Below the pieces are notes generated by a model that saw only the letters and a program-made list of their open reading frames with translations, made no database searches and was not told where the DNA came from. From Styela clava (lineage: Eukaryota; Chordata; Ascidiacea; Stolidobranchia; Styelidae), in assembly GCF_964204865.1 (NCBI RefSeq), contig NC_135258.1, positions 6,129,001 through 6,193,000 on the forward strand: a stretch of 64,000 nt of DNA, read 5' to 3'. Both the position numbers and the translations under genes were made by a program. Positions 32,195 through 63,602 of the stretch are shown in pieces. Positions within the stretch are counted from its first letter, which is position 1, and each line of letters opens with the position of its first letter.

Positions 32195-33341
32195 CAGGGA
32201 TGTACAACCTTTATTGCAAGAGGGCCAGATACAAGTTACTAGGGGACGCCGCGCGCGCACCTTCACTTGAGATAGCCATTCTAGTAGTTGCAAGCACAAA
32301 TAATTGATGACAGTAAAATTTTACTGCAAACTATTCGGTATTATCATCCGTTAACTGGAATTTCTTGTTGTTCTTTAAGCATTCATCAACGTTCTTCTTA
32401 ATTAGAAAAAATGAATTTATTTGCATGTGCAATAGCCATTTTATGCGCATATGATGAATTATAAAATAAATCTGTCTTAGGCGAAACGTTACTGAATTTG
32501 AATTTTGAAAGGCAGAAAGTATATTACGTTGTTAGAATTTAGTATTCTCGAAAGTCGGAGTTGGAACTTTTCAACGAGATTGCAGTTGTTTACTTATAGT
32601 AGTTTGCTCGCAGTGGCCAACAGTGTCAGTTTTCAGCAATTGCGACTCTCAAGAATTCCTTTTTAAATTAATATTTGTTTCTACTCTGCAAATCGCATAT
32701 CATATTATCAATTAACTTTAAAATTTTGCTTCAGTATTTTGCAACGTTGTTTGCATTTTAAAACTAAAGACATGTCAAAAGAAAATTTGTATGAGAATCC
32801 TTCAAACCGTGGCAGTTTGGAAGCAGGTAATAATGTAATATGTATTAAAAGAGTTTTACTTTTTGTTTAAGAAAGATTTGGCCTGAACCAAAAAAGTAGT
32901 AGCTCATAGAAGATTATTTCAACGCTTGATAACAATAAAGCCTAATTTCATTGGCTACCTAGAAGCTAAGCAGGTCACGCGCACTCATTCAGAAATAAAA
33001 GAATCTCATTTGTGAGCGGAATTACGGACGACCTTCAAAGTTTCAATAGCATCTGAGATGAGCAAATTCGGCCCGCTTGGCGACTCAATCTGGCCCGCCT
33101 GATCCTCCCACAATCAAAGTAAAACCAAATTTTGATGTTTCAGTTACACAATAGCTCTAGGAATTGTTGATATTGCGATAAAATTTGGATTTTTGCAGGA
33201 GGCTTATTGTTTTCCCCTTTTTCCTTCGTAACACTGTAAATATTGTTCATAAAATGTAACTTTTTTTGTCACATTTACACGGACGCCAGTCTAGGTGGGC
33301 AAAATGTTTGGTCCCTGGTATAGAGACCTTGCCCACCCCTG
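32195..33341. mobile_element. hAT remnants, probably two overlapping copies
   Basis: The left end cagggatgtacaacctttat begins at 32195 and a right end gcccacccctg finishes at 33341, with an internal gcccgcttggc..tctggcccgcctg segment near 33070. The flanking 8-mers do not match, so these ends likely belong to different insertions. The span includes the first coding exon and the start of intron 1 of the fibrinogen-domain gene, so it cannot be one simple element. Confidence 0.4.
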
Positions 33342-34518
33342 TTATTGAATTCCCAACTAGAATTGAATTTCCCTAATCCAACAAATTGAGCGTATTCCGT
33401 ATTTCATGCAACCATACCGACCCCAAAAGCAGATAAATGCCCAAATTCGAGTGAAAAATACTCAAATAAAGAACCCAAAAAATTATTATTTAGAAACCAG
33501 CGCTACGAATACCCGTGAAGATGGAATTATTGATGAGCGAGATGTCGGTGAGTAGCATAAATTCATGATTGAAAATTTTGAATTTCCCGTTGACAAAATT
33601 TCATTCGATTTTATATCCCGCTATATTGAGTATAAAGTTCATATTTTTCTAAAATTCATTTGTAATTTTATATCCCGTTCCGAAACATCTTACTTCTGCG
33701 AATATACTCTTGACGAAACTGACTGCTGAATTGAGTAAGGTCCAAAACCAAGACCCGATATCGGATTTTATTATTATCTATGAGTTTCAGAAGATCAAGC
33801 TTCATCGGATGAAAGTCAGAGTTCCGATGAGGATGAAACAGATCTGGATGGAAGCGATAAACACGAGAATGAAAAGACTTCAATGAGACAAGAAATCCAA
33901 AAACTACCTAAAAAGAAAAGACAGAGAATGGAACGTGAACTAATGTTTGGAAAATTTACTGCAGGTTGGAGAATTATAGCAAGAAATATTGGCAACAACA
34001 TAAATATAAAAAAAATGAAATTTAAAAAATGACTTTGCAATATTTTTATGCCGTTTTTCACTCCTACTATACTCTGATATGCAAAGAGCACCTCTAATTT
34101 GAAAAGGCCGAAAGAGCAATAATAACTTTATTTGGTGGGTGCAGTATCGGATCACCACCGCCTACTTTGGTCAATTATTCATATCTTTGTCGCTGTTTCA
34201 ATCGTTACACTTGGCATCTTTTTCAACCTTTTCTCTTGCTAATGGCACCAATTTCTTCTCTTATTTTTTGAACAACTGATGAAATGCGTACAATTAAATA
34301 TAAAGCATATTTAGAAATGTCCTGCAATCTTGAAATATTTCTGCATTAACATGACTGAAGCTCTTGAATGCAATTTTTTAGGTAACGTTCCAGCATTTAA
34401 CGTAATTCAATATTTCAATCTTTCAGAAATAGGCTGGAAACTGATTCTATCAATCACAGTTTACGTGTTTGCGATGTCTGCTCTCGTCGGCACATTTGCA
34501 GTTTTTATATTTGTAGAG
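32772..34518 (+). other. Cytosolic tail and transmembrane exons of the fibrinogen-domain gene
   Basis: Exons 32772-32826, 33494-33547, 33791-33964 and 34427-34518. The first begins MSKENLYENP. The third holds SSDESQSSDEDETD, a casein kinase 2-like acidic Ser cluster, and the pre-membrane KKKRQR. The fourth, 92 nt, encodes EIGWKLILS and the hydrophobic helix to FIFVE. It is the only exon here that changes phase from 1 to 0, and its counterpart in the paralogue at 62101-62192 has the same length and phase. The donor at 33965 (gttgga) is weak. Confidence 0.8.
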
Positions 34519-37500
34519 GTAAATGAATAATAACGTTTTTCACTTTTGCTTAAATCAGAGGTCGTTAACAGACGGCCCATGGGCCGAATCCGTAACATAT
34601 TAAAAATAGAATGATTTCTAATACGAGCTGAAGTACTATATGTGCATTATAAAAATAAAAAGACTTTTTCAACTGAAATGTAAAAATTGCAAACATACAC
34701 ATACCGTTCACATACTTTGCTGGACACTTTTATGTTGGATTTGGAACTTGAGTATAGTTTTGACTCATGGCACAAAAATGTCGTAATACATTTGTATCAC
34801 GTTAATGCAGAAATAAACACACGATTCTAAAGTTGCGTCTGTTGAACTAATTCTTCCTCTTCTACATATACAAGCTTATTATCGAACTTTTTGTATTTCC
34901 AGGGAAAGGATAGAAAAGTGCCCGGTGAGTTTTACTGCTTAATCCAAAAACAAAACCATGAATCGTTTTGTTAATTTGTTGTATAATTTGTTGTATGCTG
35001 TTGAATCTCTTTCAACATGTTAGTAGTGAAAAACCAAATTTTTTTTTAGAATAGAGCCATATAGACACTTTTTTGCCTGTGCGTTTCTCTGGTATTTCTT
35101 CGTATTTTAGGTAAATGACCAACTTGCTTGATTTTCGCTTTTGATTAAATTTTTTTTTGAATTTATAGTGGCTAGCAATGAAAATTTATTTGAGCTAAGC
35201 CGTTTGCATTTATTTACTCGTATATTTTTGTTTTTAAATATATGTCCATCGGTCGTTTTTTCGACAATGGAATGAAGTACGTTCACGTGGTAGCAGTTTT
35301 CAATTCCACTCACTTGTGCGTTTCGCTTTTATTAGTAAAATTATTTGGATTATTGAAATACTTTTTATATTTTAAGGTCCCCCAGCGTTTCCAGGTAAGT
35401 GATTACTGATTTACGTAGAAGTAGCAAACTATGTAGCAGTGTAAATCGTGAGACATGTGGGACAAGTATAGGACACGATATTTTAGAATTTAGACGGACA
35501 GACTCTAGAATTAGCCCCGGATATTTACTTTTCTTGGTAACTTTTTCGTCGCTAAATAATAATTTACGTTTGTTTTTAAATAAAATACCGTAGAACCATT
35601 GATTGACAATTTCGATTATTTTTATTTTCCCAAGCAAGGTCCCGAACCGTCGAAGTGATGAAATAATCAATTGGGCAATATCATCTCCAATAATTTTCTT
35701 TTTATAATAGTAATACTCAATATACAAACTTTTCTACTGCACAATCAACTCACGTTTGTTCATTTCACATTTCAATTTTTTCCATTTATGTTTGCAGAAC
35801 CCGATCCCGTCATAGAGAAAGCAAATGGTAAGAATTACATCATGAAAAAGTGTATTTACTAGTCGGCAATATTCGCTGTCGAATTGTTCTCTGATAGAGT
35901 AATTAATATACGTGGAATGCTATAATATTCATTATATTAGATTTTACTATAATAATATATTTATTACTATTGGCTCGAAGCAAGTTTATTACATTATTTT
36001 CCACGGGGAATATACACACCTTAGCTCCGAACAAGGATTCAGATGAGACATTGAAATGAAACAATTTTCTGTGCTACTGTTGACAGTTTTAGTAACAGTT
36101 TTAAAATCCTATCCCCGGAATGTCTCTCGTTACTAAACAATCAAGTGCTTTGTCATTGAAGCCTCTAATTACCTCAAATAAAATATGTTATGTTATAATT
36201 AAGACCGTCCGTCTCGAAACGCTGTAATGATATGTGAAGCTTAACATCTCTAAATATTACATGGTAAACTGATAACTCGCAATAGCATTCAGAAAAAGTA
36301 TTATTTTATTGAAATTCTCAAAGTCTTTAAAATCGGGAAACCTCCTCTTGTATTACCTACTACATATGGCTGTTTACGAAATAAATTCACGTAGTGAAAA
36401 AAAATCCTTAGTTGCCAAGGATTGGCGTTTTAGTTACACACACACAAATAATTCATCGCAGCTTATTCTCAGTTACCAAGGATGGGTGTTTTAGTCACAC
36501 CTAAACATGCTTTATTACAGCTCATACTTTTATTTACAGAAATGTATGCCGACCTCAATAAGAAGATTGACGGTAAGGATATATTACTAACAATAACTCA
36601 AAAAATACAAAATTTGCCCTTTAAAGTAAAATGAATAGTTTCTTAAGATGTCAGAAATATTGATTGTGATTAGGTATTTCTTTCGTCAGTGGTGTCAACA
36701 GAGAAGGACATTAATGTTAGTTTCGAAGTTTTGGCAATTTAGTAGCCAAGTATCTCTGCTTGTAAAGCCTGTTGTATTAGATCAAATTGTCGAATTGTCG
36801 AACTCTTCCACGTCGCGTAGTATGTATTCGATATTTACTCTACTAAAACATACACTTATTGGGTCATTGATAAAAGTAACAAATCCAACAGAATAAAGTA
36901 TAAATCCCAGCATGACTGAAGCATAAAAGCGTGTGTTTGCTGTACAGTATAAGTAATTTGAACTTCCATTCTTTGAATCTTTCCAGCAATGCAAAAGCGA
37001 ATCAAAGAGAAGAAAGAGCGTGTTATCAGTGCCATAAACAGTAAGTTCGTTCGCAACAATATAATTCACAACATGAAAACCAGGAAAATCTAAAGTGCAA
37101 GACAAGTTTTTGGTAGAGCAGCGTTTAGCGAGAAAAATGTGATTAAACACTCTTACTTAACCGCTCCCGCGAAGGTAAATTGCTTCAATTGCAATCATTT
37201 TATATTTTCAGATCAAACAAAGGAAATTATGAAAAAAATGTCAGGTAAAATATTTTTATTGAATTACATTTTTTTTTATAACTGCACTTGACATTCATTT
37301 CTTTAGCCAATAACACATAATATAACTGTAGGTTATGAAAACCAAGAGAACTCTTTCCAATTTTGATTAAACACAAATGCGAATTCAATTTTCATGCTTT
37401 GTTACATTCTATGTTAGCTTAAGCCCAAGTTTTCAACATGTGATTCCAGCATGCTGAAAAATCAAATACGCCCCGAATTCGGATTCGTTTGCACAGGAAA

Positions 37501-40500
37501 AGCAAAAATAATTATATTACAAAACTAATTCTTTACTATGAATATATTCTTTTTTGCTATCTTGATTCACATTGCATAATATTTATCAACAATAATTATT
37601 CACAGGAAAGCGTTTGGTGGAAAGGGTTAAGCGTAAGTCTCTGTTTCATATAAATACGAAACATCTGATATTTATTCCCCATTGAAATTCCCTCTCTCAA
37701 ATTTAAATTATGTGTGGAGTACAAGATATCAAAGAATAAAATTTGATGGATTTCTAGTCAAGATAATAAGTATTTGTACAGTGATTCGCCCCAATCTTAC
37801 TAAATTTATTAATTATTATAATTAAATAGTTCATTTAACCTCTGCTATTTGACGGAGCATTCTTAATTGTTTTCTCTTCATTCGATTCTCGCGCAGTATG
37901 TAACGCCTTAAACTCATTGATTTCAGTTCATGTCAACCTCTGTCATTTCATTATTTTCCTAGAATTTATTTCTTATTCAGATGTCTCAAAAAACCTTGCG
38001 GCTCGCATGGATGGTATGAAACTTTTTGCGGTATTCTTATTATATCTATAAATTCTTCAATTTCAATTTCAAAAGTTTTATATGACCACAATCAGTTGCA
38101 CGAAACGTATGCAACTTCTTTTTCCTAGTTTCAATATAGTACATCATGAACACTCTGTACTTTTTTATATTACAGAAAAAGAAGCTAAATTTAAATTGAA
38201 GTTACTGGGTAAAGTATTATCATCCGAATAAGTTGCAGTTCGAAATGTAAGATAGCACTTACAAAAATGGTAGCCAAGGTTCCCGGTTCCACACTAAAAA
38301 TGGCGGTGAATAATAATGTGTACCTCGCTATGTATGTATGTAATGCTCGATAGTGGACAGTTCATTTCATTTAAAAAGGCTACCAATTCAGTTTAGGAAT
38401 GTTACATTTAACTAATTTTTTACTTTCTTAGTTTCCTCTCTTTGATATTGCGAATAAGATTGTATTATTATAAGCAATAACATTGTAATGATTCATTCCA
38501 ATAGTTACGAACTTATGTTTATTTAATAAATGAATTGTATTTGAAATAATTAGTTTTATATTAAAACAAAGTCACACAATCTGCTCATATTCAGAAACTA
38601 ATATTATTTTCCTATTCATTTTTATATTTAATTACTTATCATGTTTTCAGAACACAAGACCGCTATTGAACAACAAGCAAGAGGTAAATCCCACTTTTAC
38701 TAACGTTAGGCATTCATTTTATCAAGACCCTGTCACAGACGCCATTTGGAACGTGAGGCCACAAATCAATATACTCGGACGCATGCAAGAGCGTAGACAT
38801 AGATAACAGTGGCTACATATACAGCCCTTGTTTGCAACTGAAGGCGTGAATGAGCGATGCATCGTCATATAAAACGAATCTTCAATTACAAACATTTAGG
38901 CTTAATAATTCATTGTCCCTTCGCTGTTCTCTTTAGAGCACCAACAAAAGACTTCAGCAACTTTGGCTGGTGAGTTATTATTTGATACCGAGTGAACTTA
39001 TGGGTTAATTTGCTAAAAATGGTTGTTGGTGCTAAACATCGCTAAAGGCTATCGCTTAGCCAAATTTACAGTAATGAAGGCACGGGCAAACGGCGAACGA
39101 TTAAACGCAGCCACAAGAGCAAAAAAAAAATATTTTTACCCACGAGAGCGCCTTTTTAAACATAAACTGTCGAGGTAAAATTTTATGCTTGAAGAGAGAA
39201 ATTAGAAATTGGATACACTAAACAGTTTGACGGGCCGGATTGTGGCCCGCGGGACGCCTGTTGCGCACCAGTAATATAGATTATTTTATATGACCTCTAA
39301 ACTCCGTGTCTATATCTGAGCTTTGCTCCTTCGTTTTAAGTCTGTGCAGGTATGTGATTATTTCGAGAACATTTGTTTTCAATAAAAGCATGCTTTTATT
39401 AATTTGCGAACTTTTTAACAATGTTGATTAATTTAATTCTAGCTCTTGATGATAGCATAATGACTTCTTTCACAAGTGAGTTCCAATCTACTTATAATTT
39501 TGCATTTCGCATTTTTCTTATGATTGTAGAAGTCTCACGTCCATCGGCTCACATTGACGCAGTTTTCCCTACCTTAATTTTATATCGTTTGCTTCTCAGT
39601 GATCGCCCACAACTTTGCTCTGCACTACTCAGTAATTGCTAGTTACCGTATTTGAACAAATTATTTCGAGAAGGGATTTATATTAAATATGTTCAAATAT
39701 GAAAAGTCATTTTATTTGTCTTTAGCAATTTGATAATTATTTATGCTCAAATTCGATCGTTCCGCAAATTCTAATGCAAATACTCTTATATAGTTCTGTA
39801 ACGCATCCTTTCAAAAGCCAGTATCATTAACTAGCAGTAAATTTTATCAAATTTTAAAACTACGAAAACCCATGTTTTCTTTTTCCAGAGCAAGGGATGA
39901 AAATAGATGAGGCCACTAGAGGTAAAGATGTTATTTCAGACTATGATGTTATTTTGCTCGTCAGAATTGTCGAATGTTTTATAAAAAGATGAAATCTTGA
40001 TTGTAAATTGAATTTTAAATCAAAAATTAATCGAATAATAAACAGCCGTTGTTGCGTGCACGTATTTGTCATTCTTTCCACTCCAAACAAGTCTTTGTAC
40101 AAGAAGCTACAACCCACTGACAAAGTAGGCACTACATTTATGAAAACTTGAATTTTTTCGGTTATCAAACAATTTAGTAAACCCTGAGTGAGGAGCATGC
40201 GACCCACCAAAATCTGTTGCCTGTGCCAACAAAGTCTAGTCTAATCACAGGGCCAAATTCCAGCGTTTTTATTAAATGGGACGTAAGTGGATTGTAAGTG
40301 GCCGCTTTCATAGCTCGATGACATTAGGAATATGATCTTTTGTTTCAGAATTGACCAATGAGTTGGTGAATTCTACATCAGGTAAGTAAGATTTATATTT
40401 GCATGTGATAATTAGCAATGGATATTCGTTCAAGCAAAGATCTACTGCGTCATTTTTGTGACAATAAGTTTTCTTTTGATCAAAATTTCGTCAGACATTT

Positions 40501-43500
40501 AGGCAGATATCACAGTACTCGTTAACTCTCAATCTAGTATTTTTGAGTATTTCAAGTTATGTTTTTCAATTTAGATATAAACTGACTCCGGAATTTAGTT
40601 CTGATTCATTGAGCAACTACCATAAAATAAAATAAAATAGAAACTGTTGCCATCATTTCTTATTTATGGCGGCTTAAAAAGTTCAACACAACAAGTGAAT
40701 ATTAAAATTAGCTTGTCAATACAAATCACTTCGAAAAACAATACTCAAGTGTATATGGTGATGCAGAGGGAAGGGATAGTCAAAGGCAAAGGAAACATTC
40801 ATTCCTCCTAACACTGAGATAAAATAATCCATATTTTATATTATTTTTAATTTACAGAGCAGGGAAAATTACTTGGTGGAAAAATGGAAAGTAAGCTGTT
40901 AGAGATAATATAACAAAACATACATTGCAATAGATTTAATAATTCAGTGTTATCAAATTTGACTGGTCCACCAAACTAGACGAAGCAGATCAATAAAAAT
41001 AAAAAAAAATGCATTAGATGTAGACTCGATTCTGAAAAACAAATTCGATAATTTGCAACCAATAGAAGCGAAACTAATTTTGAAATTGAATTTTATTTAT
41101 CCGCGTGGTCAGACTATACTCTAAAACGAACTAGAACTCACAATTCTTGATGCGAGATACAACAGAAATAATCATAAACCAAACCACACAGTTGACATAT
41201 TGATATTTTATCCGTATCTAGAAGTTTTAGACGCTGTCAATAAAGGAATAAATGGTATGTAATTCTAAATCTATTCTATATCGATTTTTCATCAAATGCA
41301 GTATAACGCGTTAAATACAATTATGTATTGAAACAGACATGGACGCCAACTATACAGCTCAAATTGGGGGTAAGACTGTCTCAATACAATACGAATACTT
41401 TAAGCTTTGTGATCATTTTTATAGCTTTACTAAAAACGCAAATATGCTGACAAATTATCGCGGTACTAAATACTTAAACACATAACAATAGACACGAGAT
41501 TATTGTGATATTTGAGGCCAAATTTACAGTATTGCAGTCTTTTACTTGTCAAACTATTAGTTTTATTTCAAACAGGCTTTTACGGTAACATTGAGGGCAA
41601 CATGTTGGGTGAGTAAATGTAGATAGGTTTATGAGAAAAATGCTTTTTTCTGTTGAATTTCGGCGATTAACTTAAAGACATATGAACATTAGAAATTCAA
41701 TTTAACATTATTTTGTTGTGCAACATATTTCTAACTATAATTCATCCAAAACGTAGCCTATACAATCTAAACGTATTTAATTTATTCCAGTTAACTTTGC
41801 TTAATGTTGTAGATCCTGTATCTCTGGTGCAACCCCGTTCATCGTATAATATATATGGGCTGTATATAGGATATTTATATTACTATAGCATTACGTATGG
41901 GTTGGTCTGGGAATTATCTCATTTTCAACCCTATGGTCGACAGTATTGCCATTCCATATCTCTTTGAAGAATATAAACATCGACTTCATTTTGAAATATT
42001 TTGCAGGTTTTCTGACCGATATGAGAGCCAGCATAGCTGGTGAGTAGTTCAATCGGAATTTTCTGGTTGTACTTTGCGAAATTGTTTACGAACTCTGAAC
42101 AACGCTGTACACTGGCAGATATCTACTAGTTTTAACGGTAGTTGAAATAAAAAGCAACGTCGTCTATATAATTGTGGTTTTCCCTTATTTTATTACTATA
42201 CATATTAAAGTTAGAAAATGTTCAATTTTAACAGGAGAAGCGTTGAAAGTCAATCAGAAAGTATTGGGTCAGTATGTTATTTAATTGATACAACGTCATG
42301 AAGTGCGACCTAACTATGTAACCAGTTTAGATCTTTTCCGATTCCGCGTTCATTTATGTCTTTTGCTCTGAAATAATGGTATTATGCAAGCTGATATCTG
42401 ACGACATGTTAGCAATGGAATCTTTCCGGTTCGGCATTGTCTACCCAACCCGTTGCGCCCTAGATGGCGGGTATGGGATTTGAACCTGATGTCAACACAA
42501 TTGAGTCTCATCATTTACCGTTCGGTCACCGTGCCCTCATGAAAGGGAGAGAGGAAGTCGTAACATCTACACCCAGTTTGACTGTCTTTAATTCGTCGAG
42601 TAAAATTAACTAATGTTTGATATTTTGTCACAGCTTTCAAGAATACAATCAATTCTACGACAGACAGTAAGTGCTGCCAAAATATAGGTCGTATAACCCA
42701 TGGGTGTCAAACTCGCGGCCCGGGGGCCGCATGCGGCACCAGAGAACTTCAAGGCGGCCCTTGAACGCTTAACAATAAATGTAATATATTTTTGTTATCT
42801 AAATGTAATACATTCTTCAAGCCTTTTAAAGTGAAATTGATTATTCACATAGAAAACGACAATTTACTCAAAGTTTTATCTGTTTTGAACTCTGTTGTTT
42901 GCATTATATTTTGGAGATTTTAATGAATTGAGACACTATGCATATTCTGCATTAGTCGATTCCGACAACATAGTTTAAATTTTACTTTTGAATATTTTCA
43001 AATATCTTTATTTTTGATTTTTCATGGTTTTTCAATTAAAAAATTTTATAACACAGGGATTGAAAAAAGTCTGGGAAAAAGGAAATCAGGTTGGTTTGAA
43101 ATGAATTTTTTAAAATTCAAATCTACGTTAAATAGTTCTACTGTGATTATTACTATTGGAAAAACGTTATATGTTTGCCTTGCAAGAAAACATAGAATGT
43201 TGGCATGGAAAGTTGCGCTAATCACGTTACTCATATTTTCGAGCAATTTTGTAATCCGGGAATCAGGTCGGTCTTCTCTGTGGCGGTCACAACCGTAAAA
43301 TAGCAAACCGAATTGTTTAATAAATTTTTTATTCGCACTTTTAGGTAAGTTATCACATTTTGTTTTATTTTCAATCAATTAATTTCAGCACAAGACAAAA
43401 TTCTTCAGAATTCAATTGATAGTGAGTATTTTGTCAATATTCCTAATAATGGATGAATAGATCGTGAACCCGGAAATTATAAGTACACAACAAGAATTAA

Positions 43501-46500
43501 TTGATAAATCATGGAATATGAACGTAATAATGGCATTCAGCTGGGACCTGACGTCATATTTACCTTGCATTTATTCATTTGAAATTGGACCGTAATCGAA
43601 TATTTTAACACATTATCTGAATTCAATGGTTTTCCCAGTCACAAAATATATTATGTCTCACTAAGTCACACCGCCCAAGCGCTGAAAACACCGACCGGCC
43701 ATAATTACCTAGTTATGCTGAAAAACATGAATTGGTAAGGATTTGAAGTTATGGGCATGTAGTCAAATTGTTTTGCATGCAAGACTCAATAATTGTAAAC
43801 AGTTTCTGTCGGAAACTACTTCTCTAATTTTCGTTTTTATTAACAGAAGCGATGCATGACGTAGCAAACGTTACCACGGGTGAATGCTTTCATATATTCT
43901 TTTTGATGTGTATTTTTTTATGGTACTCGAAACTTCACAATAAATAAACACTTATATAACTAAAGAAGTTGTAATACATGAAAATTGTCTCTTTGCTTAT
44001 ATACCAGATTTCTATAAATTTCCAACTAACCTCGTTCTAGTATTAGGTTAGATAACGACGGATTAAATCTTGAAATTTATACATACCATGTTATAAAATA
44101 CGTGTTGTTTATTTGATCCTTTTTATCACTCAATCTCAAATATAACAATTTTTGTCAGAAATTGAAGCGAATATTAAGAAGACTTTTCCGGGTATGTATT
44201 GCTAAATATGGCATATGACTTGCATAACCCAAAAAGAATTGTAGAAAATCTTAAGTATAAGGATATAAACCTATGTTTTCAAAGCACACGTATTCGAAAT
44301 AAAATTTTTAAATTATCATAGAACTTGGAAGATAGAGATATTATTGATGCTTATTCGATGATATTTTTACAATTTCGTGTTTAGCAATGCAATTATTATT
44401 TAACTTAACTTTAATCTAAAAAAATACGTTGAATTTATTTCTATTACAGAGAAATTAAAAGCGATTAAAAAGAAAATTTTGGGTGAGTGATATCTTTAAA
44501 CGAATCTGTAGACAATGATGGTTCGGGCCATTCTGTTATCAATTATCTTCCCGATGCTCCACTATTAACCCATCATTCTTAACATGTTTTCAAAAGTCAT
44601 CTTAAGTTCATACTCATTAAATTTGTTGGTGCCAACTGGAGGAAACACCTGAAAAGTCATCTGCATATCATCGAATATTTGTGAATTATTTTTTCAAAAG
44701 TTGCTTGTCCATTATGTGTTTTTGCGCCTCAAATTTCTTGCTTCCACATAAAAAAAAGATATGTTTGTCATCTGTGTATCGTTTGATTTATTTTTACAAA
44801 TACCAAGAGTGTTTTTATTGCCATAATAAGTCTAGTCTAGTCCTTTTACACCAAGTCATCGTTTTTGTAAGTGTAAATGGAACTATACACTAATCGGGAT
44901 GAAAGAAATGACGAAAACTAGATAAAAGGGAATTAATAATAATATTCATAGCGATGAGATCAGTATAATATGCAGTGTTCATTTGTGTTACTTTGTTATT
45001 CTTTCAGAAGCATGGAATGTTTTATCATCAGAATCATAACTTTTTTGCTCATGGTGGAATATAAATAAAATTATTTGCAAATCAGGATACTAAATTAACA
45101 GAAATTCATGTCGACAAATAAATATTATATGTATACAACTGCTTGTAATAAGCAGTGTTTATTTGTGTTACATTACGGCAGTCAACATTTCTGGGTGCTT
45201 TTTTATGTTTCGAATTGAAAATGTGTCAAAATGAACACTGAATAAATTCTTGTTTTCGCAGCCAAAGTTCTTGACGTAACCGGTGAAATGGGAGGTAAAT
45301 ATGATTTGCGTTTACTTCGTTAGTTAACGGGCGCCGCTCCTGTGTGTACCAATATTGGAGTAACTAATTCTGTTCGCCTATTTTACATCAAATTGTGTAA
45401 AGGGACTGAAACCTATGGACAGGTGGATATTCACTTGGCTATCACAGACAGTCCCCGAACTTGTAATAGAACTAAAATTATAACTCTACCCTAACCTGGT
45501 ACACACACTACGAGAGTACCTAACGTGTACCGTTGTAAAAGTCTACGTGGCGTATACTAGTCATAGTCTAGATTTGTATTTAGATATATTTGCTGATGTT
45601 GCAGTGGGGTTCATATCTTTGTTATCCGGAGTTGTGAGTCTTAGCCAGGTCAAATTTTAATGGTTTAGTATCGTGAGTTGGATATAGCATTTATTCATCT
45701 CCTCGGTCCTGAAGATGTTGTAGTCGGAGCCATTTTGGTTAACCGGAGTCGTGAGTTGCAGTAGAGATAAAAATTTTAATGGTTCAGTATCATGAGTTGG
45801 AACAAGCATTTTTCTATTTCCACGGCACTAAATTTTTTTCTTATATCGATCAAAAATTATAAAGTTTTGTAAACATTTTTTAGATTACAAAAACCAAACA
45901 GTAAAAGCGCTCGAAGGTGAGTTATTTCATAATTCTACAAAGCGTTGGTAACGCGAGTTGGAAGCCATGGAGTATTTGTAGATGTATACGATACTTATAA
46001 ATATAATAATGTATAATGATAATAATATTTAGCGAAAAATACACTTTATGGACTTTGAATTCATTACATGACTTATATCCTCAATAGTTAGTTTTTGTTC
46101 CCGACTTAACCGCAACCTTTGAAATGTGATTCAACATTTCCTGTTTATTTTATTAAGTTATAGAAGTTATTTAGTTATAGAAGTTTTAAAATAGGAAGAT
46201 AAATCTAGTTCAAGGTCCTATCTTCTGATGTAGAATTAACTTTAATATCCGCTTGTTTTCACAGACACCGATCGTGAACTGAAAAAAGAACTAGCTACAG
46301 GTAAGTATGGCTAACCATTCAAATAACCTTCTCAAATATTAAAATGCCGCCACACTAAGCTTATTTCATGGACATTATAAAGGACTTTGTTTTACTAAAC
46401 TTTCTGTATTTTTTTAAATAGCCAGTAGGTTTTCATGAAAAACGGTGGTTCGTCAACTAAATTTGTTTGCTTACGTTTTGCGGAAAACATGTTTCTTCCC

Positions 46501-49500
46501 CGTTATATAGTCAGTGTCACCACTTATATATTACTACTACCACTTGAGGAACCCAAATCCTATTTTGTACAAACTTGCAAGCACTAAACATTTGCGTTTT
46601 TTCTGCTCCAATTCTAACTAAACCACATTTTATAGTGATGACTCCAATGGCAAACGACTATGACACAAAATGGAATGGTGAGCATAAATAGGATACGGTT
46701 TTGTAATATTCTTTTGTAACCGTTCTCTTAACATAGAATTAGCTAATGAGCTAGGAAAATTTTTTATCGTATATTTACTTATGATTTTTCCTTTCACTTG
46801 ACCACCAGCTTCATTTGTTATGTAGTTTTACTAATACTATTTACGTCATCGATTGCTTATTAATGCAAATCAATACGCCTGGTGTCTATTATCAGAAAGA
46901 GATCATTCTTGCGCGAATTATCCCTTGCAATTGAAAATAAAAATGCTTAATGATGCTACGTTGAAATAAGTATCTGCAGCGTGGGAATGGTCTGCTATTG
47001 CTCGGTTTTTGTCAATGTTAGAATCCCAATCATAATTTCACTGATTATATGCATTCGTCATTTTATTTCAGCATTCAAAAAAGACATGACGTCAGCTTTA
47101 GCAGGTATTCAAAGTTTATCTATATCTATTTACTATATGAAGCGACTGCTAAATCTTAGATAATTCTAAATTATAGTGAATATCTGTGAAATAGTGAAAA
47201 TTTGAATAAACAAAATGAGTGTAATATTTTTGAATTTCCCCGATAAGAGCCAAATGCTATTAGTACTTACCAAAGGACGCGGATATTGTCTAAGTGATGA
47301 CATTGCATTAGAAATTCACGTAATTTTGATGTTTTACCATTGCAGCAAGGTTCTCACACTTATATCGGCATAACAATCTCTTTATCGTCCTCATGTTGAC
47401 TGAAAATTTCTTCCCACTAAATTACCATTGGACAGCGGTAGACATATAGATAATTTAGTAGAATTGTGGATATTTTTGAAAGAAAGTCAAAGTTCACTTT
47501 TCCCTTCAACTTTGATAATCTCAGAATATTTTTAATGCAACTGACAATTCGCAAAAAATTGAACACAACAAATTCTGTAATATTTTCAAATTTGTTGATT
47601 GGGTCAGATTCAGATCGTACAAAGGAAATGCATATCGTGCTTACTATCGTAGTAAATATTGTACTCGAGTGATGACATTGCATGGCAAATTACTGAAACT
47701 TTGATATTTTCTAGCTGCAATATAGCTCTTATATTTAATTCGCATCTTCTCTTGGTGATTGGTTATTTCCTCTTAGTAAATTATTTTTTTATTAGATATA
47801 TTGGACAATGATAGACCTATGATTCACTTGATGGAATTGTTGATATTTTTTGAATAAATCAAAATTTACTTTTCCTTATAACTATACTAGACCAGTGATT
47901 CCAAACGTCTTTTCAAGCGACCCAAATTTTTGTAAAAAATCAATTTCGTAAAATATCGCGAACAAACATTTCGAAATTAATTTAAATTTTCAGATTTCGG
48001 AACAGCTGTTGGTAGCAAATTCGAAGGTGAGCAATTATAAAACAAGAATTAATTTATTTGTAATATTAGATTTAAAAAATGATGACGAGTGTTTTTTTTT
48101 ATACGTAGAATCGTCAAATAACATAGCTCTGTTCACTCGCAAGCCTACTAATAGAATTAAAATGAAAATAAATAATATTTTGTTGAAATAGTATCTATTA
48201 TCTAAACCAAATGTTTGTAGTGGAAGAGCCTATCTCGAATATATATCACGGAAGTTCAACAACTAATTGCAGTACCGGTAGCCTGCGCGCAGGGTTGCCA
48301 GATCCCAGCGATCAAAAAAAGCCAAATCAAGACACAAAAAAAGCCAGGAAAAGCCAACAATTTACCAAGTAGAAAAGCCCCATGATTAGTCAGATTTTAA
48401 GCCCTTGGCAACGTATTGATGATGTTAAAGACGTAAAGCTATCATGCCATTCAGTGAGGCACACAAATAGAAAGTAAAGTTCCTATAGAACTGTAGAAGG
48501 TGAAATAAATATCAAGTAGACAGATTTATTTTACCATTCAATATATACAAGACAGGGTGCCTCTTCAGCGTGTAATATACCTACATGTTTCTACTTAAAC
48601 TTGTAATATATCTTAAAAAATTCTCCCTATATTGTATCTTACTATAGAAAAAATTTCACTTTTTAAATTTATAAATCATCAATTTTATTAAAATATTATC
48701 TAACGCCGTGCCCCTCACAGGTGGACCACTGATATCTAATTCAGTAATTTTAGCGTAGTTAATCACATCGTTCGTGAGAGTAAATTTTGATTACTGCAAT
48801 TGCAGAATTAAACTAGAGCTCACATAAACCATACCAGGCATAATGAAAATTGAGTTATACAATTAATTTTTGGAAACAGAGTCAAAAACTGACAAATAAC
48901 ACGCAAAACTATAAAAAAAAGGTAATGCTTACAACCCCGCTTGAACATCTGTCTGAGCAGCTGCAGAAACTGCAAATATTTCTTATTTGGTATGGTTAAG
49001 AGTAAATGTAACAAACAAGGGAATAGAGGCTCCAGGAAAGCCTGATGTTAAGTAGCTAAGTACAGGTAATAGGCTATTGTTCAGTTGTTGAACACTAAAT
49101 ATTGTATTTCATATGATTTTAATAATAGACACTAGAATAGACTTGAAAAAAGCCAAAAAAAAAAAACGCCAAAAAGCCAAACGGAAATTCTGACGCCAAA
49201 CGCGTTTGAAAAAAGCCAAAAATGGCAAATTTGGCGTTAAAGAAGCCAATATGGCAACACTGCATGCGAGACTGAAAGGTGATTGAGCATCGATTTCTAA
49301 AACGAAGGAAGTTGTCAAGTAGATGATCACGCGTGAGAGAACAAAAACTGTGTTTTTGGTAATTAAAACAAAACGTCGAAAATTTCGATGGAGTGATGGA
49401 TCTCATAGGAGGGAAAAATTCCGAATATTCTTCTGACGACAACTCACGCCTTAAGCTACTAAAAATAGTAAATCGATTGACTCATTAGTTGCAGAAAAAG

Positions 49501-52500
49501 AGATTTTCTGCTGCAAAAGATCACACCAATCAAGTACAAGACGACTACAATTAGGAAAACAATTCATACGATCATTTGCAATACAAGTAGGGAAGTAGTC
49601 AAGGGTATAGAGACGTACCGAAAAGTCTCTCATGTTCGAATAAATTAGATAGCACATAATTTTTATTCGCATTGGTTCTTTGTTTTGCAGAGGTGAATAA
49701 AAACGATTTAGCACAAAGCTGTGACGAGACCCGATATGGAAATGCTTTGACCTGGGATACTAACAAGGAAGGGGCGGTTTACAAACTGACATTGCCAGCC
49801 TTTCTCTCTGGCATAGAAGTCTACTGCTCAAATCACAAGGGTTGGCTGGTACGATTGTTGTTATTTGTTTTGTTATTCATATATTAATAATTTTAAAATA
49901 CATCTGTGTCTTTCACATGCCTATTGCGCATCTCTCATCCGAACTTATGATCATCTTCGGTCGTACAACTGGCTGAAGATAAATATGTTGGACCTAGGTA
50001 ATAATTCAAGCAATTTAATTTTGAGGAATACAGAATGTCAATAAATTTACTGTTTTACTATAAACTTCTTATTTCAAATCAGAGTTTGTTTTCTATATCA
50101 AAATGCGATGTATTCAGGTTCTGATGAGATATGAGCCAAATCCTGACTTCTTTAGGGATTTTACATTAGAACTGTACCAAACGGATGTAGGAAAGCCCGC
50201 TGAAGATAACTACTGGATTGGTAAATATTATCAGTACAAAATAGCTTTTGAACACTACCATAAAAAATTACGTTTTGAAGAAGTTCATGATTGCTTTATA
50301 AATTTGCTCAAGGCAAGGTCTTGAACTTCATCTAAAAGTTCATTTTTGTACAGCCACTCGTATGTTGAAAACTATTTATACATTTCATTTTACAAAGACT
50401 ACAGTAAATACGGATTGTATTTCAACTAAACGATAATTTGTTGGATGCGACAAACTTAGTTAGAATTATTGGACACGTAGTGGACATAACGATCGTTTCA
50501 ATATTATGTTGTTGTTGTTGTTCTTTGACACGTTTTTAAAAAGTCGCTTTTCTTTTCGAATACTGGACCAATTGCTTTGAAATTTTCAGTGGTTAAAGAT
50601 AAAAATTTTCTCCAGAAGGCTATTACTTTTTTTTTCGCTATGACGTCATCAAAATTATGTGACTCTACGTGTCCATATATTTGAGCATAGCTCTCTTGTT
50701 AAAAAGAGGTTTATAAAAGAACTAAATATTGATAAATTTGAAACACGAATATAGCTTCATCTGCTTGACATTTTAGCAGTGAAGCGGTAAATTGTAGCTT
50801 TTTGTAACTGTTTTATTAATATACGTTATTTGACTTGTTACCTCGCTATAGTCCATAGGACACAGACGTGCAATGAATATGTTCGTTTGTAATATATTCT
50901 TCTTGTATCAAAGGTTTGGATAATATGCATAAGATTACCTCATACGGGAATTACAAACTCAAAATCGAACTTACACCAAAAATCGGGACTGTGATAACTC
51001 AAGTTTACGAGTAAGTTTAATTGACTGAGCTCCATGGCTATACACTTCTAGCGTTAATGTAGAAATTAAAAATCATGATTTCCCACTCGTTCAAGCTTCT
51101 GATAACTCAAAAACTATACGTAATTTCTTAAATCAGTTATCTCGGTCTTCGTATCAGTGTTTAATTGTCTATTCAGTATTGAACATTGTTTGTGGCAAAG
51201 TATTTCATAAAGACTGTAGAGTTATGCTCAAATTTATGTACGCGAATGGCTACGTTGCTGTTGGAGTCATCAAGAAAACTACCAAAACGTGCGGGAATAT
51301 GAAAGAAAACAAGGCGGCAGAAAAGACCAAAAAAAAAATTGGAAAGAAGTGCTGGAATCATCTAGCGCCCATCAACGGCATAAACAAAAAAAATCGCCGG
51401 GTGCTTGAGTTCTGGGTTTCAACTATCAGCGGAAATCCTGATACTGGCTTGTGCAGTATATTTGTGCATCGCTCGTTCTGCTTGTGATTTAAACCCAGTA
51501 AAATTATCAAATCAGACAAGTAGCTTATTAGTTTTTTGAGAGAATTTCAGCTTATCATGAAGTGGTTTTAAAAGCTGACTTATATAACATATCTAAGCTG
51601 CAAAGTAGAGGAATGTGTTAAACTCTTCAATACCCGATTGATTGGGAGGGATATATTATTTGGTCAACCGAAAAAATAATCATTAATACAAAAAAGTAGG
51701 TAAAATAGTTTTGGTATTGACAGTTTAAAATGAATGATTAGTCTAAACACAATGCATTTGCTATTTTACTTGAAATTCAGACTCTGCCAAATGATATGCT
51801 TTATTGTTTCAGATCATTCAGAGTGGGAGACGAAGCGTCCATGTATAAACTGACTATTGGAAAATTTGATAAAACCGAATCCAATACTTTGGTGAGTTCA
51901 CTGTTTCTTTGGTGATTATATTTGTAATTAGTGGAAAATAAGTCCATTTCTGTGTCGGATGAATAACAACTAAACGGGTATTTGTGTGAGTTCAGTACAA
52001 TTAGATGCTTCTATCATACGAACATTTTCATACAAAACGAAAGGTCAGATCGATCTCCGTCCCGGTTGGTGTGGTACTCCCGTAGTATGTGTACCACAAT
52101 AGGGTTAAGCCATAATTTTATTCTGATTTTCCTATTTTTTAATTCTAATACGAATTTGGAGACTGCTTTTGTTAGTCATGTGAATATCCCCCTACCCGTG
52201 GGTTTCAGTCCATTTACACAACAAAATTAGTTACCTCTATATTGATACACATACTTCTGGAGCGCCGTTGTTTCTATAACCCACTCTTCAATAAATAACA
52301 TGTGAATGGCAGACTTCATTTGAATGTCTGCTCACTGTTCGTGACTGATCCCAGACTAGATCTGAAAAGCATTTTATTTTAGACCAGACAATGAGATTTT
52401 GTAGCGTTCAAGCGATTTGCTTTCTTAGCCACGAATTGAATCTATGGATTATTTTCTTATAATAATTTTTTTAGTATTTTTCATCTTGTTGTTACCGTAT

Positions 52501-55471
52501 AAAAAAAGTGACTGAAAATTGTATATTTCGAAGGCTATTATATTTAATCATTTCCAAAATCTTATGTGAGATCCTTGGGATTCGTTCTTTGTGTGCAATG
52601 ACGTCACAAAAATTAAAAAGTTCGCACCTTGTGGCGGTTCCGCCTTCGCGTTAGCGAAAGGTTCGGTGAAATGGTGAACACTGCGGTATGGTAACGGTAG
52701 TCTAATTGTGACCCTCTCTTGTTTGTCTTTCAGATCGGAGCAGGTGATTTCTCGCAACACGATGGAGCGCAGTTTGTAGCCACGGGAGGAACCTGCGCTA
52801 GCACCGGAGGTTCTGGTTGGTGGTAAGACAAAATTGTTTTGTATCTGCATAGGCAGCAGCAGAAACTTTATTTTTTTTATGTCTGAAACCAGTCTATGGA
52901 TTTTATTTTCTTATTGCATTGCATCTCAAAAAGCCCTATTCGAATACTTTCTGCTCCATTGAACCCTCTGCACTCAGCATTAACTTTTGTGAGTTTTGCC
53001 ATTTGTGTAATTACAATTAAATTGTAGTCTCGTTAAACGAGTAACTAGTAGCTGTTCACTAAATGCTTAGGTTAAACGATAATTTAGTCTACACATATCT
53101 CACAATAAAGTTACGTCCAGAATATATTCAACTCCTCGCGCTTTATTTTACTCTGCGCGTCGGATCTGGCCCGCGTTCCGTAGGTGGCCGACCCCCGGTC
53201 TAGTAGTTGATGAGAATAGCGATTGTTTTTCTCACAAACACGAAAAAAATACAAACGATTCATAGTGCATTTCGTGTCCAATAGCGACAATATTGCTTAA
53301 GTTATGCAAACCATTCCAAAGCAGGTTACGGCGGTTAGTCGTATTCATGTTACTTTTTGTGGAATGAACCAAGTATTCACAGATCCGTTATTTGTATTAT
53401 TATATGTTTGAGAAAGCCATGACTTCACGCTTCTTACACCATATTTGTATCGCATTAATACGAAGCCTAAACGCAGTAAGATTGTACGTCAAGCAGAGTG
53501 CCAATCTATAGCATGCCTTGTTTCGAATTTTGCAGGTATTATGTAGGCACGAAGAACGGTATTCAGTGTTTCCAAGTCAAACTAACGGGAACAGCAGTGT
53601 ATGCTGACATAGCGTCCAGGGGAGCTAACAGAGATGATATTCATGCAGGCATGGGTATGTCGGCAACGCAGTAACGTTCCTTTTGGTTTTATTTCACAAC
53701 TAGCTTGCACTTCCTATACAGTCTGTTTATTATAATTTTCCATTAAGGTAGAATACGACATTGCAAAATCATTGTGAGAGTTGGCATAGAAAACACTAAT
53801 TGGACTCATACTAGAGAAATCGTGCATACTTTGTTGCCATATAATTTTGTTACCATATAATTCATCTGAGTCTTCTCTTTTTTATCTAATTTTATTAATC
53901 CCCTATGGTTGTGTGTGTGCGAGTGTGTATAATTTGATTCAATAGTTTTAGGTGAGTAAACTCGCACCACTTCTTTTTGGCAATACTTTCCATCTTATAT
54001 TCTGTACGTTTTAAACCCCATCCAAGGTATTGTCAACTTTTCGGATTTCATAATCAGTTCTTATTTATTTGTTTTTATCAATCGTTCTATCGCTGTTTGT
54101 GCTGATTAGGGAGTCGAAATAAATTATCTTATCTACTTCAACTATAATTTATGGGATTGTACTGTAACCTATTCATATTTTGAACCTATTCATATTTCCT
54201 CAATCATCCCTAATTTCAACATTTGTGAGGATAGACAATCCAACCAAAAGTTTTGTAAGACACGATTTTATACCCGCATGCACCAGCACGAGCAAATCTA
54301 ACGGTTTGACTATATACACAAGGTATGCATGTCATTTCCGTCAATCGTTCAATATTCTCAACGGTCGACCTAATTACTTATCGATTTTAATCGGTAAGTA
54401 TGTTGATATTTATTTGGTATAGGTATTTATTTGTCTGTCTGTTTGTTTGTTTGTTAGATGCACGCGATATCTCACGAAAGCGAGATTGAATCTGCTCCAG
54501 ATTTTGCATGTGCATTCATCATATGTCGTACCAGAAGCCTATTGATTATTTCGTATAATTAGAGAGTTATTAATTAATTATTGATGGGACACAAGGTGTC
54601 ACTATAGAGTAAGAGCGCTGTTTTGGGATCCCCTAACTTTCGATCGATAAGTCTTCGGTCTCTGACCGATATTCTCGTTTGTTAATTGTCAAGTTAACAT
54701 TTTACCTAAGGCTGTTTCCGTGTATTTCATTTTTAATGGTTGCTGGCAAATTGCTGGAAGCCTCAAAAGATGTCGTGATAAGCTTGTTTTGCAAGTTGAT
54801 CCATAAAGTAAATTCATTACACATTTTTTCTGTTATTAATTTTATCTTCTAAATTCTGCGGGGCGAGATAAAAAAAAACGTAGGTGTTTCAGGACAAAAA
54901 ATAATAGAGAAACGCTCGACTAGAGACTTGTTTAAAATCAAAGCTGCAATTGAACTTAACATCCAAGTGACAATTAATATTTTACAGGAGTCTACAAGAA
55001 AGCAATGATGTCCATCAAACTTGTAAGTAAACAAAAGACTCAAATAAAATATTGATTTATTGAGTGCATTTTAATTGTGTACTCTTATAGTAAAAAAGGA
55101 ATCATTTTTGATGTGAAGATTACATGCTTGAAAATATAAAGAAGGCAGAAGGGAAAATATGGGAGTTGCAAGATTTTGACCGGTATCTGCCGGTTTATTT
55201 GTGTTTATGGACCATTTGATTAGTTCATTTTAGTGTTGCCTACCATGATCTGAACCCAATTCATCAAATCGAATGATCCATCCGAGTTTCAAATGTTGAG
55301 CTTCAATTCCAGCAACTGCTAGTTGATTGTGAAAAAAGTGAAATGAAGTAAAAATTTTCTGAATTTTATTCTTTCGCAATGTTAACCAGAGTACATCTTT
55401 TATTAATATAAAAAATATTAAAAAGTTTTCACCCCACTCTGAAGATGTCGTTCTCGTTTCAGAACAAGTAA
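32772..55471 (+). CDS. Type II membrane protein with hendecad stalk and fibrinogen-like domain (about 44 exons)
   Basis: The chained coding exons total 2,151 nt, exactly 717 codons including the stop, with every phase agreeing. From the N terminus: an acidic Ser-rich cytosolic tail (~95 residues, NLYENP near the start, KLPKKKRQR before the membrane), one transmembrane helix, a GPP hinge, a ~340-residue stalk of mostly 11-residue units, each its own 33-nt exon, and a C-terminal fibrinogen-like domain. Basic residues on the cytosolic side and no signal peptide indicate N-in, C-out topology. The stalk carries N-glycosylation sequons (NST, NYT, NVT, NQT). The order resembles FIBCD1, a type II fibrinogen-domain receptor, but orthology is not claimed. 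Coiled-coil oligomers displaying fibrinogen heads at the cell surface are the likely form; ligand unknown. A paralogue follows at 60648. The 33-nt exon at 43057-43089 has a weak donor; without it the protein is 705 residues. Confidence 0.82.
34903..35827 (+). other. Juxtamembrane hinge micro-exons
   Basis: Three small exons: 34903-34924 (22 nt, GKDRKVP), 35377-35394 (18 nt, GPPAFP) and 35798-35827 (30 nt, EPDPVIEKAN). Together they form a Pro-rich hinge between membrane and stalk. The 18-nt exon is framed by tttaag and gtaagt. All junctions after the first exon are phase 1. Confidence 0.7.
35877..36539. other. Intron of the fibrinogen-domain gene, nothing else seen
   Basis: AT-rich intronic sequence. 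An alternative acceptor-like tattacag lies ~18 bp upstream of the used tttacag before exon 36540. No element boundaries are recognised. Confidence 0.4.
42411..42560 (-). mobile_element. tRNA-derived SINE head, antisense, intronic
   Basis: On the minus strand it reads an A-box-like ggtgaccgaacggt and a B-box-like ggttcaaatccc about 40 bases apart, followed by a non-tRNA body. It differs from the SINE at 17458. It lies between stalk exons 42235 and 42634, and no acceptor stem closes properly, so it is not a functional tRNA. Confidence 0.6.
42700..42780. mobile_element. hAT terminal fragment in intron
   Basis: The sequence gggtgtcaaactcgcggcc followed by a GC palindrome (gcggcccgggggccgc) is typical of the ends of hAT/Charlie-like elements. 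I did not find its partner end. Similar ggcccg-type ends occur near 34565, 39230 and 53180. Confidence 0.5.
45008..45039 (+). pseudogene. Stop-bearing stalk exon (decayed or alternative last exon)
   Basis: After a good acceptor (attctttcag) a phase-1 frame reads E-AWNVLSSES and then TAA at 45037-45039. No GT lies at the 33-nt position. An AATAAA follows at 45063-45068. It is either a dead array member or a functional alternative terminal exon that would end the protein within the stalk, before the fibrinogen domain. The sequence alone does not decide. Confidence 0.5.
45063..45068 (+). terminator. Candidate intronic poly(A) signal
   Basis: AATAAA 24 bases after the TAA of the stop-bearing exon. 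It would permit a short transcript. AATAAA is frequent by chance in AT-rich introns, so support is only positional. Confidence 0.35.
45329..45520 (+). mobile_element. MITE family A copy, in stalk intron
   Basis: About 192 bp from gggcgccgctcctgtgtg to cacacactacgagagtacc, with the family core cacagacagtccccgaac. It is only 35 bp downstream of stalk exon 45262-45294. The flanks share taac. Confidence 0.8.
48290..49262. mobile_element. hAT-like element in the last stalk intron
   Basis: Begins CAGGGTTGCCAGATCCC and ends gccaatatggcaacactg, near-inverse termini 973 bp apart. The flanking 8-mers cctgcgcg and catgcgag agree at six of eight positions. Sub-terminal aaaaaagccaa repeats occur at both ends. 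No transposase frame is visible. It separates the stalk array from the fibrinogen-domain exons. Confidence 0.75.
49691..55471 (+). other. Fibrinogen-like domain (FReD) exons
   Basis: Exons 49691-49848, 50085-50220, 50914-51010, 51813-51891, 52734-52822, 53536-53654, 54988-55022 and 55463-55471, about 230 residues, the usual domain size. Diagnostic matches: SCDETRYG to VYC (first disulfide), a KGW turn, DFFRDF, NYWIGLDNMHKIT, YKLKIEL, SFRVGDEASMYKLTIGKF and GSGWWY. The domain is derived: the acidic calcium loop and the WKG..YSLK segment near the C terminus are not recognisable, and the cysteine after the WWY lies farther away than usual. The first junction has two possible pairings; donor 49849 with acceptor before 50085 keeps the GW turn. 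The last exon encodes NK then TAA; reading through the gtaagt at 55023 instead would give a stop at about 55052. Confidence 0.85.
52073..52266 (-). mobile_element. MITE family A copy, between FReD exons
   Basis: Starts ggtactcccgtagtatgtgtac and ends gatacacatacttctggagcgcc, 194 bp, inverse orientation. The flanks share gttg. Confidence 0.85.
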
Positions 55472-58583: not shown

Positions 58584-58674
58584 GCCGCTAAAGCGGCTTT
58601 CAGCGTCAGAAGACTTTCTCGGGAAAGCCGCTATAGCGGCTTTCAGGATTCAAAGAGTTAATTAACTCTTTGAA
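58584..58674. repeat. Cluster of short palindromes
   Basis: Perfect palindromes at 58623-58644 (gaaagccgctatagcggc plus ttc continuation, 22 nt) and 58649-58674 (centred on gagttaattaactc, 26 nt), preceded by a near-palindrome gccgctaaagcggc at 58584-58597. Confidence 0.8.
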
Positions 58675-59584: not shown

Positions 59585-59720
59585 CATATACGCTACATTC
59601 CTGATATCGCTATATTTACAATGGGTTTTAAACGAAAGCTTTGTCCAGAGGAAATATTGGATAGTATTCATCTATCAGAAGAAGAAAATATGGCACAATG
59701 AAGTCCAGCATTGGCGCTTA
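59585..59720 (+). other. Possible transposase N-terminal fragment
   Basis: A frame near 59620 reads MGFKRKLCPEEILDSIHLSEEE before a stop at about 59699. This weakly recalls the start of piggyBac-type transposases (RKL..EEI). The match is short; it could be chance. Confidence 0.2.
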
Positions 59721-63527: not shown

Positions 63528-63602
63528 TCGAATTGTTTCTACAAGACAATAGCCAACGTCAAAGTTCATTATATTGCTTTCGATGAGGTGGATTTATGAA
63601 TG

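Follow-up and report, generated by a model that had tools for sequence, protein, structure and literature searches.

A fibrinogen-domain gene of the ascidian Styela clava with one stalk hendecad per exon

FIBCD1, a vertebrate type II transmembrane receptor with a C-terminal fibrinogen domain (FReD), consists of a short cytosolic tail, a transmembrane helix, a coiled-coil ectodomain and the FReD, as described in an excerpt of PMC3908420. Here we describe LOC120340027 (RefSeq), a gene of the ascidian Styela clava with the same predicted layout, whose stalk is encoded by a long array of very short exons. It lies in a 64,000-nucleotide stretch of contig NC_135258.1 (assembly GCF_964204865.1, positions 6,129,001 to 6,193,000 of the forward strand), which we call the window; positions are counted from its first letter. 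The Styela stalk differs from that of FIBCD1 in being 328 aa long, in its hendecad period and in having one hendecad per exon. The tetramer and the binding of acetyl groups are features of FIBCD1, to which the Styela protein is likened by sequence layout only.

The nearest parallel to this gene plan that we have seen in print is the schistosome micro-exon gene, in which symmetric exons of 6-36 bp make up about 80% of the coding region of secreted or membrane-anchored proteins (PMC5825161, in excerpt). Both have long series of very short symmetric exons, but the Styela gene has one dominant length and that length is one structural repeat. About 46% of its coding model (2151 nt) falls within exons of 36 nt or less (27 of the 29 stalk exons are that short), the tail, transmembrane and FReD exons being longer, so it falls short of the 80% that the excerpt gives for a micro-exon gene. 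The likeness is one of exon plan, and we claim no homology or shared domain.

Collagen genes have tandem arrays of symmetric exons, of 54 nt or other multiples of 9 nt, that hold whole numbers of structural repeats. The Styela gene resembles them in its long symmetric array and in having an exon equal to a whole repeat, and an 18-nt Gly-Pro-Pro exon precedes its stalk, perhaps what is left of a collagen-like segment such as ficolins have. However, the Styela repeat is an 11-residue alpha-helical unit without the Gly-X-Y pattern, and 33 nt is no multiple of 9. Apolipoproteins A1, A4 and E also have 11-residue helical repeats, and the Styela stalk has a sub-threshold Pfam match to them; it differs in its narrow hydrophobic stripe and in having one exon per repeat, whereas the apolipoprotein 11/22-mers sit within one exon. 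The ascidian v-Themis proteins of the egg coat are fibrinogen-like too (PMC7018956, in excerpt), and here the comparison is by description only. Searching the open-licence PMC literature at the level of listings, we found no description of a hendecad or 33-nt exon array. We rate the protein class as known, that of FIBCD1-like membrane FReD proteins, and the one-hendecad-per-exon gene plan as the new part. We consider it likely that the gene encodes a membrane FReD protein with one hendecad per exon, that the stalk forms a coiled-coil rod, and that the array arose by duplication of symmetric exons before this gene and two sister genes split.

The stalk exon array and its register

The preliminary description of this DNA claimed that 36540-48026 holds a tandem run of 25 exons, each 33 nt long and phase 1-1. 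All 25 were recovered by a scan for open 33-nt units flanked by AG and GT and are real, though the run is not pure: four exons of other lengths (54, 27, 36 and 42 nt) are interspersed. The 29 stalk exons are all phase 1-1 and join in one open frame of 328 residues, with introns of 82-889 bases and mostly strong splice sites. A protein search with the joined exon product returned the annotated uncharacterized protein LOC120340027 isoform X2 (P0001, 708 aa). Aligned to the joined model, it matches all 29 stalk exon peptides, in order and with 0 mismatches. Because it holds every stalk exon, the in-frame use of these exons in the annotated protein is supported independently of the exon scan.

Short exons are easily invented, and one scan found 84 pairs of AG and GT spaced for 33-nt exons in 27 kb, so we asked how often such an array would be expected from spurious pairs. 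With a single fixed splice score, the region 36400-48100 contains 22 candidates of 33 nt and, among lengths of 15-99 nt, at most 4 of any other. Under first-order Markov resampling (n=200), candidates of 33 nt averaged 0.62 and never exceeded 4, and no length exceeded 6. Read on the minus strand, this region has 1 candidate of 33 nt, and the control stretches 100-32000 and 56500-63800 have 2 each. In 100-32000 the commonest candidate lengths are 61 nt, with 10 candidates, and 66 nt, with 9; other lengths can thus accumulate, whether by chance or because the exons are genuine, but they do not form an open series locked in one phase. All introns in 35828-49690 were scanned too, and they contain no further open 33-nt units between AG and GT or GC with hydrophobics at positions 2, 6 and 10. 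We give practically no credence to a chance or annotation artefact, a reading all but refuted by the resampling (22 observed against 0.62 expected), the exact match to isoform X2, the hydrophobic register and the two paralogs discussed below.

The register of the exons is that of a helical repeat. Strong hydrophobics (VILMFYW) occupy positions 2, 6 and 10 in 14, 23 and 19 of the 25 exons, the count at position 6 being exactly the one first reported. These three positions hold 56 of the 78 strong hydrophobics, against 21.3 ± 3.4 in within-exon shuffles, and 0 of 100000 shuffles reached as many. Over the whole stalk the hydrophobic period peaks at 3.68 residues with a power of 7.3, compared with a maximum of 2.4 in 2000 shuffles and a power of 0.20 at the heptad period of 3.5. 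The hydrophobic core repeats every 11 residues or three turns (period 11/3), which is the hendecad pattern, and both the counts and the period back the earlier claim that exon and coil repeat are in register. The codon of position 1 is split by the intron, its first base being the last base of the exon; since that base is G in most exons, position 1 is mostly E, A, D, G or K. Such residues would fit an exposed site, and the splice consensus would be compatible with the coil register as we have placed it.

With 17 Gly and 2 Pro in its 328 residues, the stalk does not have the Gly-X-Y repeats of collagen. The stalks of the window gene and its two paralogs all lack Cys. They carry 6, 5 and 10 sequons, none of them at position 2, 6 or 10 of the 11-residue exons. 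A Cys-free stalk with sequons off these positions is what is expected of a glycosylated coiled-coil ectodomain, and sequons within the stalk would favour type II topology.

The same 11-mers could be read as lipid-binding amphipathic helices of the apolipoprotein kind and not as a coiled coil. The apolipoprotein family PF01442 does match the stalk (E 2.8e-6), as it does in 2 of the 3 family members, but its 27.6 bits are far under the curated cut-off of 90. The hydrophobic stripe is a narrow 4-4-3 one, with the 56 of 78 strong hydrophobics at three of eleven positions, and the place of the stalk, between the putative transmembrane helix and the FReD, suits a spacer. We believe this reading is very unlikely and that the stalk is better taken as a coiled coil.

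Paralogs and the age of the array

A genome search with the FReD of the window gene gave 10 matches, 6 in the gene itself and 4 elsewhere: C10:5991300 and C10:5994711 (both on the minus strand), C10:3973303 and C5:23065568. Used as a query in turn, the C5 gene's FReD matched the window gene, the gene at C10:3.97 Mb and itself, and nothing else. The tail and transmembrane segment found the window gene and, weakly, C5:23046758 and C10:3947785 (E 0.44 and 0.95), both in the expected places. We call the gene at C10:3.97 Mb paralog 2 and the C5 gene paralog 3. Each has a transmembrane exon, then a 33-nt array and then a FReD, and they are 25 and 29% identical to isoform X2. Finding the same architecture in two paralogs is independent support for a stalk with one hendecad per exon.

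The paralog exons were chained with a scorer that has no length or hydrophobicity term. Since the window gene served to train its splice-site matrix, the count of 33-nt exons in that gene itself (25 of 31) is not independent. Before curation, 26 of the 37 chained exons in paralog 2 and 21 of 31 in paralog 3 are 33 nt long; the minus strands of these loci have 0 of 7 and 0 of 6, and seven control loci (both strands) 4 of 54. In 44 paralog exons, picked with neither a hydrophobicity nor a length criterion, position 6 is strongly hydrophobic in 35 and position 10 in 36; positions 2, 6 and 10 together hold 87 of 146 strong hydrophobics, against 42.9 ± 4.7. The hydrophobic period peaks at 3.66 in both paralogs. 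Hand curation dropped five chained exons of paralog 2 (24, 45, 24, 51 and 15 nt) and replaced one of 24 nt by one of 33 nt; in paralog 3 three were dropped (48, 36 and 57 nt), two of 36 nt and one of 27 nt were re-read as 33 nt, and one of 33 nt was added. The curated models of the window gene, paralog 2 and paralog 3 have 29, 32 and 29 stalk exons (25, 27 and 25 of them 33 nt) and 328, 349 and 325 stalk residues. A single 54-nt exon lies near the membrane in each of the three, and the exon after it starts with the sequon N-Q/H-T, the intron falling inside the Asn codon in every case.

Exon order can be compared between these genes. The exon-order alignment scores 202 and 161 for the two pairs that include the window gene, where the shuffled maxima are 151 and 120 (0 of 200 shuffles reach the score in each case). 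For paralog 2 with paralog 3 the score is 116 and the shuffled maximum 126, with 2 of 200 shuffles reaching it. When only 11-residue exons are aligned (2000 shuffles), 0, 0 and 7 shuffles reach the observed score, or 0, 0 and 3 with another gap cost, in the order window pairs and then paralog 2 with paralog 3. Since the order of exons aligns above shuffles, the array probably predates the split of the three genes. Their common ancestor probably already had an array of about the present size, and by these comparisons the array seems to be an old one of almost constant length. With some exons longer or shorter than 33 nt, the net differences in stalk length (+21 and -3 aa) do not fall in steps of 11.

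This bears on whether the stalk is freely variable in 11-residue steps, as the preliminary description had it. That claim is weakened, since three diverged paralogs keep near-constant arrays with aligned exon order. In its strong form the claim is that inclusion or skipping of 33-nt exons sets the length of the rod in 11-residue (~1.6 nm) steps while keeping frame and register. Symmetric 33-nt exons permit this, the database cluster of isoform X2 has 6 member sequences, and schistosome micro-exon genes are described as a system of variation by alternative splicing (PMC5825161, in excerpt). However, isoform X2, the single isoform seen, retains all stalk exons, the splice sites are mostly strong, and the near-equal stalk lengths in three diverged paralogs argue for constraint. 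We find regulation of this kind improbable. The broader claim of a chordate family in which the 33-nt exon is the hendecad unit, the register is kept across paralogs and the reach of the membrane receptor is set, again in steps of ~1.6 nm, by including single exons under regulation, we consider rather improbable.

Other FReD loci were encountered in the course of this work. A candidate paralog 1 at C10:5.99 Mb was rejected, there being no 33-nt array in the 20 kb examined, despite 73% identity in the last large FReD exon. The locus (L038, L039 and L044, minus strand) has two neighbouring copies of that exon, 73% identical over 41 aa to the one in the window and preceded by one or two FReD exons; it is either another gene or an incomplete duplicate. 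In paralog 2 an additional fragment resembling GWLIQLRYQ, possibly a second FReD copy, lies past the FReD exons of the model, at C10:3979469 (L050 to L052). The fibrinogen loci matched in the genome were scanned for 33-nt arrays, and the 33-nt units at L005, L006, L008, L009, L012, L013 (contig C6), L027 and L028 turned out to be a FReD exon, GLE(K/T)LHRLTSD, and not stalk. There are at least 161 fibrinogen-domain matches in the Styela genome (150 of 718 candidates scored), many of them tightly clustered on C6, C13, C17 and C19; judged by these matches, the FReD repertoire is large and expanded. Protein database searches for orthologs, mostly among the roughly 8000 candidates sharing most words, returned isoform X2 alone.

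Domains, features and neighbouring genes

The encoded order is a putative cytosolic tail, a putative transmembrane helix, the stalk and a divergent FReD (Table 1). One hydrophobic stretch follows the acidic and basic tail and precedes the stalk, and it is this position between charged tail and stalk that makes the layout FIBCD1-like. Pfam assigns the window protein to Fibrinogen_C (PF00147) with E 7.5e-23 and 81.9 bits against a cut-off of 22, and the domain is found in 3 of 3 family members. The solved relatives of the FReD in the PDB are tenascin-R (2.1e-18), ficolins, angiopoietins and FIBCD1 (chain 4m7f, 1.4e-8); the closest by sequence are tenascin-R and ficolin-3, not FIBCD1. Most of these matches end 35 to 50 residues short, those to tenascin-R and FIBCD1 at residue 178 of the 229 in the query. 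The ligand-binding end of the FReD is therefore divergent, and the part that holds most of the acetyl-group (S1) residues listed for FIBCD1 in the excerpt of PMC3908420 is too divergent to align. A PDB search with FReD exon 5 only gave no match, and one with the stalk sequence found no similar stalk (3 matches, E 0.23-0.78).

The first coding exon of isoform X2 differs from that of our initial analysis model. At the other end, its C-terminus (...GMGMSATQSLQESNDVHQT) fits a donor 16 nt past 53654, with the exon ending at 53670. Isoform X2 seems to end as it does through an alternative 5' splice site, which would shift the frame in the next exon and change the end of the FReD.

Table 1. Exons of LOC120340027 in the window. 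Stalk exons are based on the joined open frame and alignment to isoform X2 (P0001); the last column gives the basis for the other exons and remarks.
Feature	Position	Strand	Basis or remark
Coding exon 1, MSKENLYENPSNRGSLEA, cytosolic, end phase 1	32772..32826	+	P0001 N-terminus against window
Cytosolic exon, ETSATNTREDGIIDERDV	33494..33547	+	exon scan, P0001
Cytosolic exon, acidic then basic	33791..33964	+	model, P0001
Transmembrane exon, EIGWKLILSITVYVFAMSALVGTFAVFIFVE	34427..34518	+	model, P0001; present in paralogs
Juxtamembrane exon, GKDRKVP	34903..34924	+	model, P0001
18-nt phase 1-1 exon, Gly-Pro-Pro-Ala-Phe-Pro	35377..35394	+	exon scan, model, P0001
30-nt phase 1-1 exon, EPDPVIEKAN	35798..35827	+	exon scan, model, P0001
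Stalk exon 1, 33 nt, EMYADLNKKID	36540..36572	+	
Stalk exon 2, 54 nt (18 aa = 11+7)	36987..37040	+	54-nt exon in both paralog models too
Stalk exon 3, 33 nt, NQTKEIMKKMS, sequon NQT	37212..37244	+	
Stalk exon 4, 27 nt	37606..37632	+	
Stalk exon 5, 33 nt	37981..38013	+	
Stalk exon 6, 33 nt	38176..38208	+	
Stalk exon 7, 33 nt	38651..38683	+	
Stalk exon 8, 33 nt	38937..38969	+	
Stalk exon 9, 33 nt	39443..39475	+	
Stalk exon 10, 33 nt	39889..39921	+	
Stalk exon 11, 33 nt	40349..40381	+	
Stalk exon 12, 33 nt	40858..40890	+	
Stalk exon 13, 33 nt	41222..41254	+	
Stalk exon 14, 33 nt	41337..41369	+	
Stalk exon 15, 33 nt	41576..41608	+	
Stalk exon 16, 33 nt	42007..42039	+	
Stalk exon 17, 33 nt	42235..42267	+	
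Stalk exon 18, 33 nt	42634..42666	+	
Stalk exon 19, 33 nt, weak donor gttggt	43057..43089	+	included in P0001
Stalk exon 20, 33 nt	43389..43421	+	
Stalk exon 21, 33 nt	43847..43879	+	
Stalk exon 22, 33 nt	44159..44191	+	
Stalk exon 23, 33 nt	44450..44482	+	
Stalk exon 24, 33 nt	45262..45294	+	
Stalk exon 25, 33 nt	45884..45916	+	
Stalk exon 26, 36 nt	46265..46300	+	
Stalk exon 27, 42 nt (14 aa)	46636..46677	+	
Stalk exon 28, 33 nt	47072..47104	+	
Stalk exon 29, 33 nt	47994..48026	+	
FReD exon 1	49691..49848	+	model, Pfam, P0001
FReD exon 2	50118..50220	+	model, P0001
FReD exon 3	50914..51010	+	model, P0001
FReD exon 4	51813..51891	+	model, P0001
FReD exon 5	52734..52822	+	model, P0001
FReD exon 6	53536..53654	+	model, P0001
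Penultimate coding exon	54988..55022	+	model; P0001 reads another frame
Terminal codons N-K-stop	55463..55471	+	analysis model only; absent from P0001

Elsewhere in the window there is a single-exon beta-ketoacyl synthase gene (PF00109 and PF02801; 6709-8088, plus strand), a C2H2 zinc-finger protein gene (10900-12141, minus strand), and a set of exons with SH2 and PH domains at 25.9-29.5 kb on the plus strand, which we take to be DAPP1-like.

Origin of the array and meaning of the stalk

We propose that the array was founded when a single symmetric exon of 33 nt (11 codons, three helical turns, phase 1-1) was duplicated again and again. Duplicating such a unit preserves both the frame and the coil register, so only such copies would be tolerated and the array would be uniform. 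The founding expansion would have come before the three-gene split, with the number of repeats near-constant afterwards. There is no sign of recent exon duplication: the best pair of 33-nt exons is identical at 21 of 33 nt, within the 17-24 range of column-permuted null maxima, and neighbouring 33-nt exons are no more alike in nucleotides than other pairs.

Equal spacing and a single phase could also come about with no exon duplication, if a single long exon of tandem hendecads had later been split by introns, every repeat receiving one at the same proto-splice site. The lack of special similarity between neighbouring exons is in keeping with this, as is the weak apolipoprotein match of the stalk. 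It would, however, require many independent insertions at exactly one site; there is no recurring intron family, each of the 20 listed direct-repeat families (out of 38 in 32000-56000) having just two copies, 71-90% alike; and three diverged paralogs already have the 33-nt plan. We think this history unlikely and prefer exon duplication.

The stalk would be a parallel oligomeric coiled coil of the near-straight (11/3) type, about 49 nm long, which is 328 residues at a helical rise of 0.15 nm if all of it is helix. Such a rod may keep clustered FReDs off the cell, for binding of a ligand or of a neighbouring cell, much as FIBCD1 does with a shorter coil.

Several results weigh against this interpretation. 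Position 2 is hydrophobic in just 14 of 25 window exons and 16 of 44 paralog exons, and of the four exons that are not 33 nt those of 9 and 12 residues should shift the stripe of the coil. AlphaFold2, given the single sequence, puts helices across most of residues 142-480 with a mean pLDDT of 37.7, which makes it weak evidence for a helical stalk. The 33-nt exons have no clear nucleotide relatedness beyond their shared codon pattern, so it is their length and phase that argue for duplication. A cruder test of exon order, by reciprocal-best exons, is collinear only for the window gene with paralog 2 (p 0.001), the values being p 0.10 for the window gene with paralog 3 and p 0.74 for paralog 2 with paralog 3.

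The limits of exons rarely coincide one-to-one with an alpha-helical repeat over a long stretch. Here they do so in 25 exons, and the pattern recurs in two sister genes. This raises the question whether splice phase and coil register have selected each other, and whether the rod can change by whole repeats only. The gene is a natural test case for the splicing of 29 consecutive exons of 27-54 nt, and it would mark a small subfamily of membrane-bound ascidian FReD proteins with an unusually long stalk.

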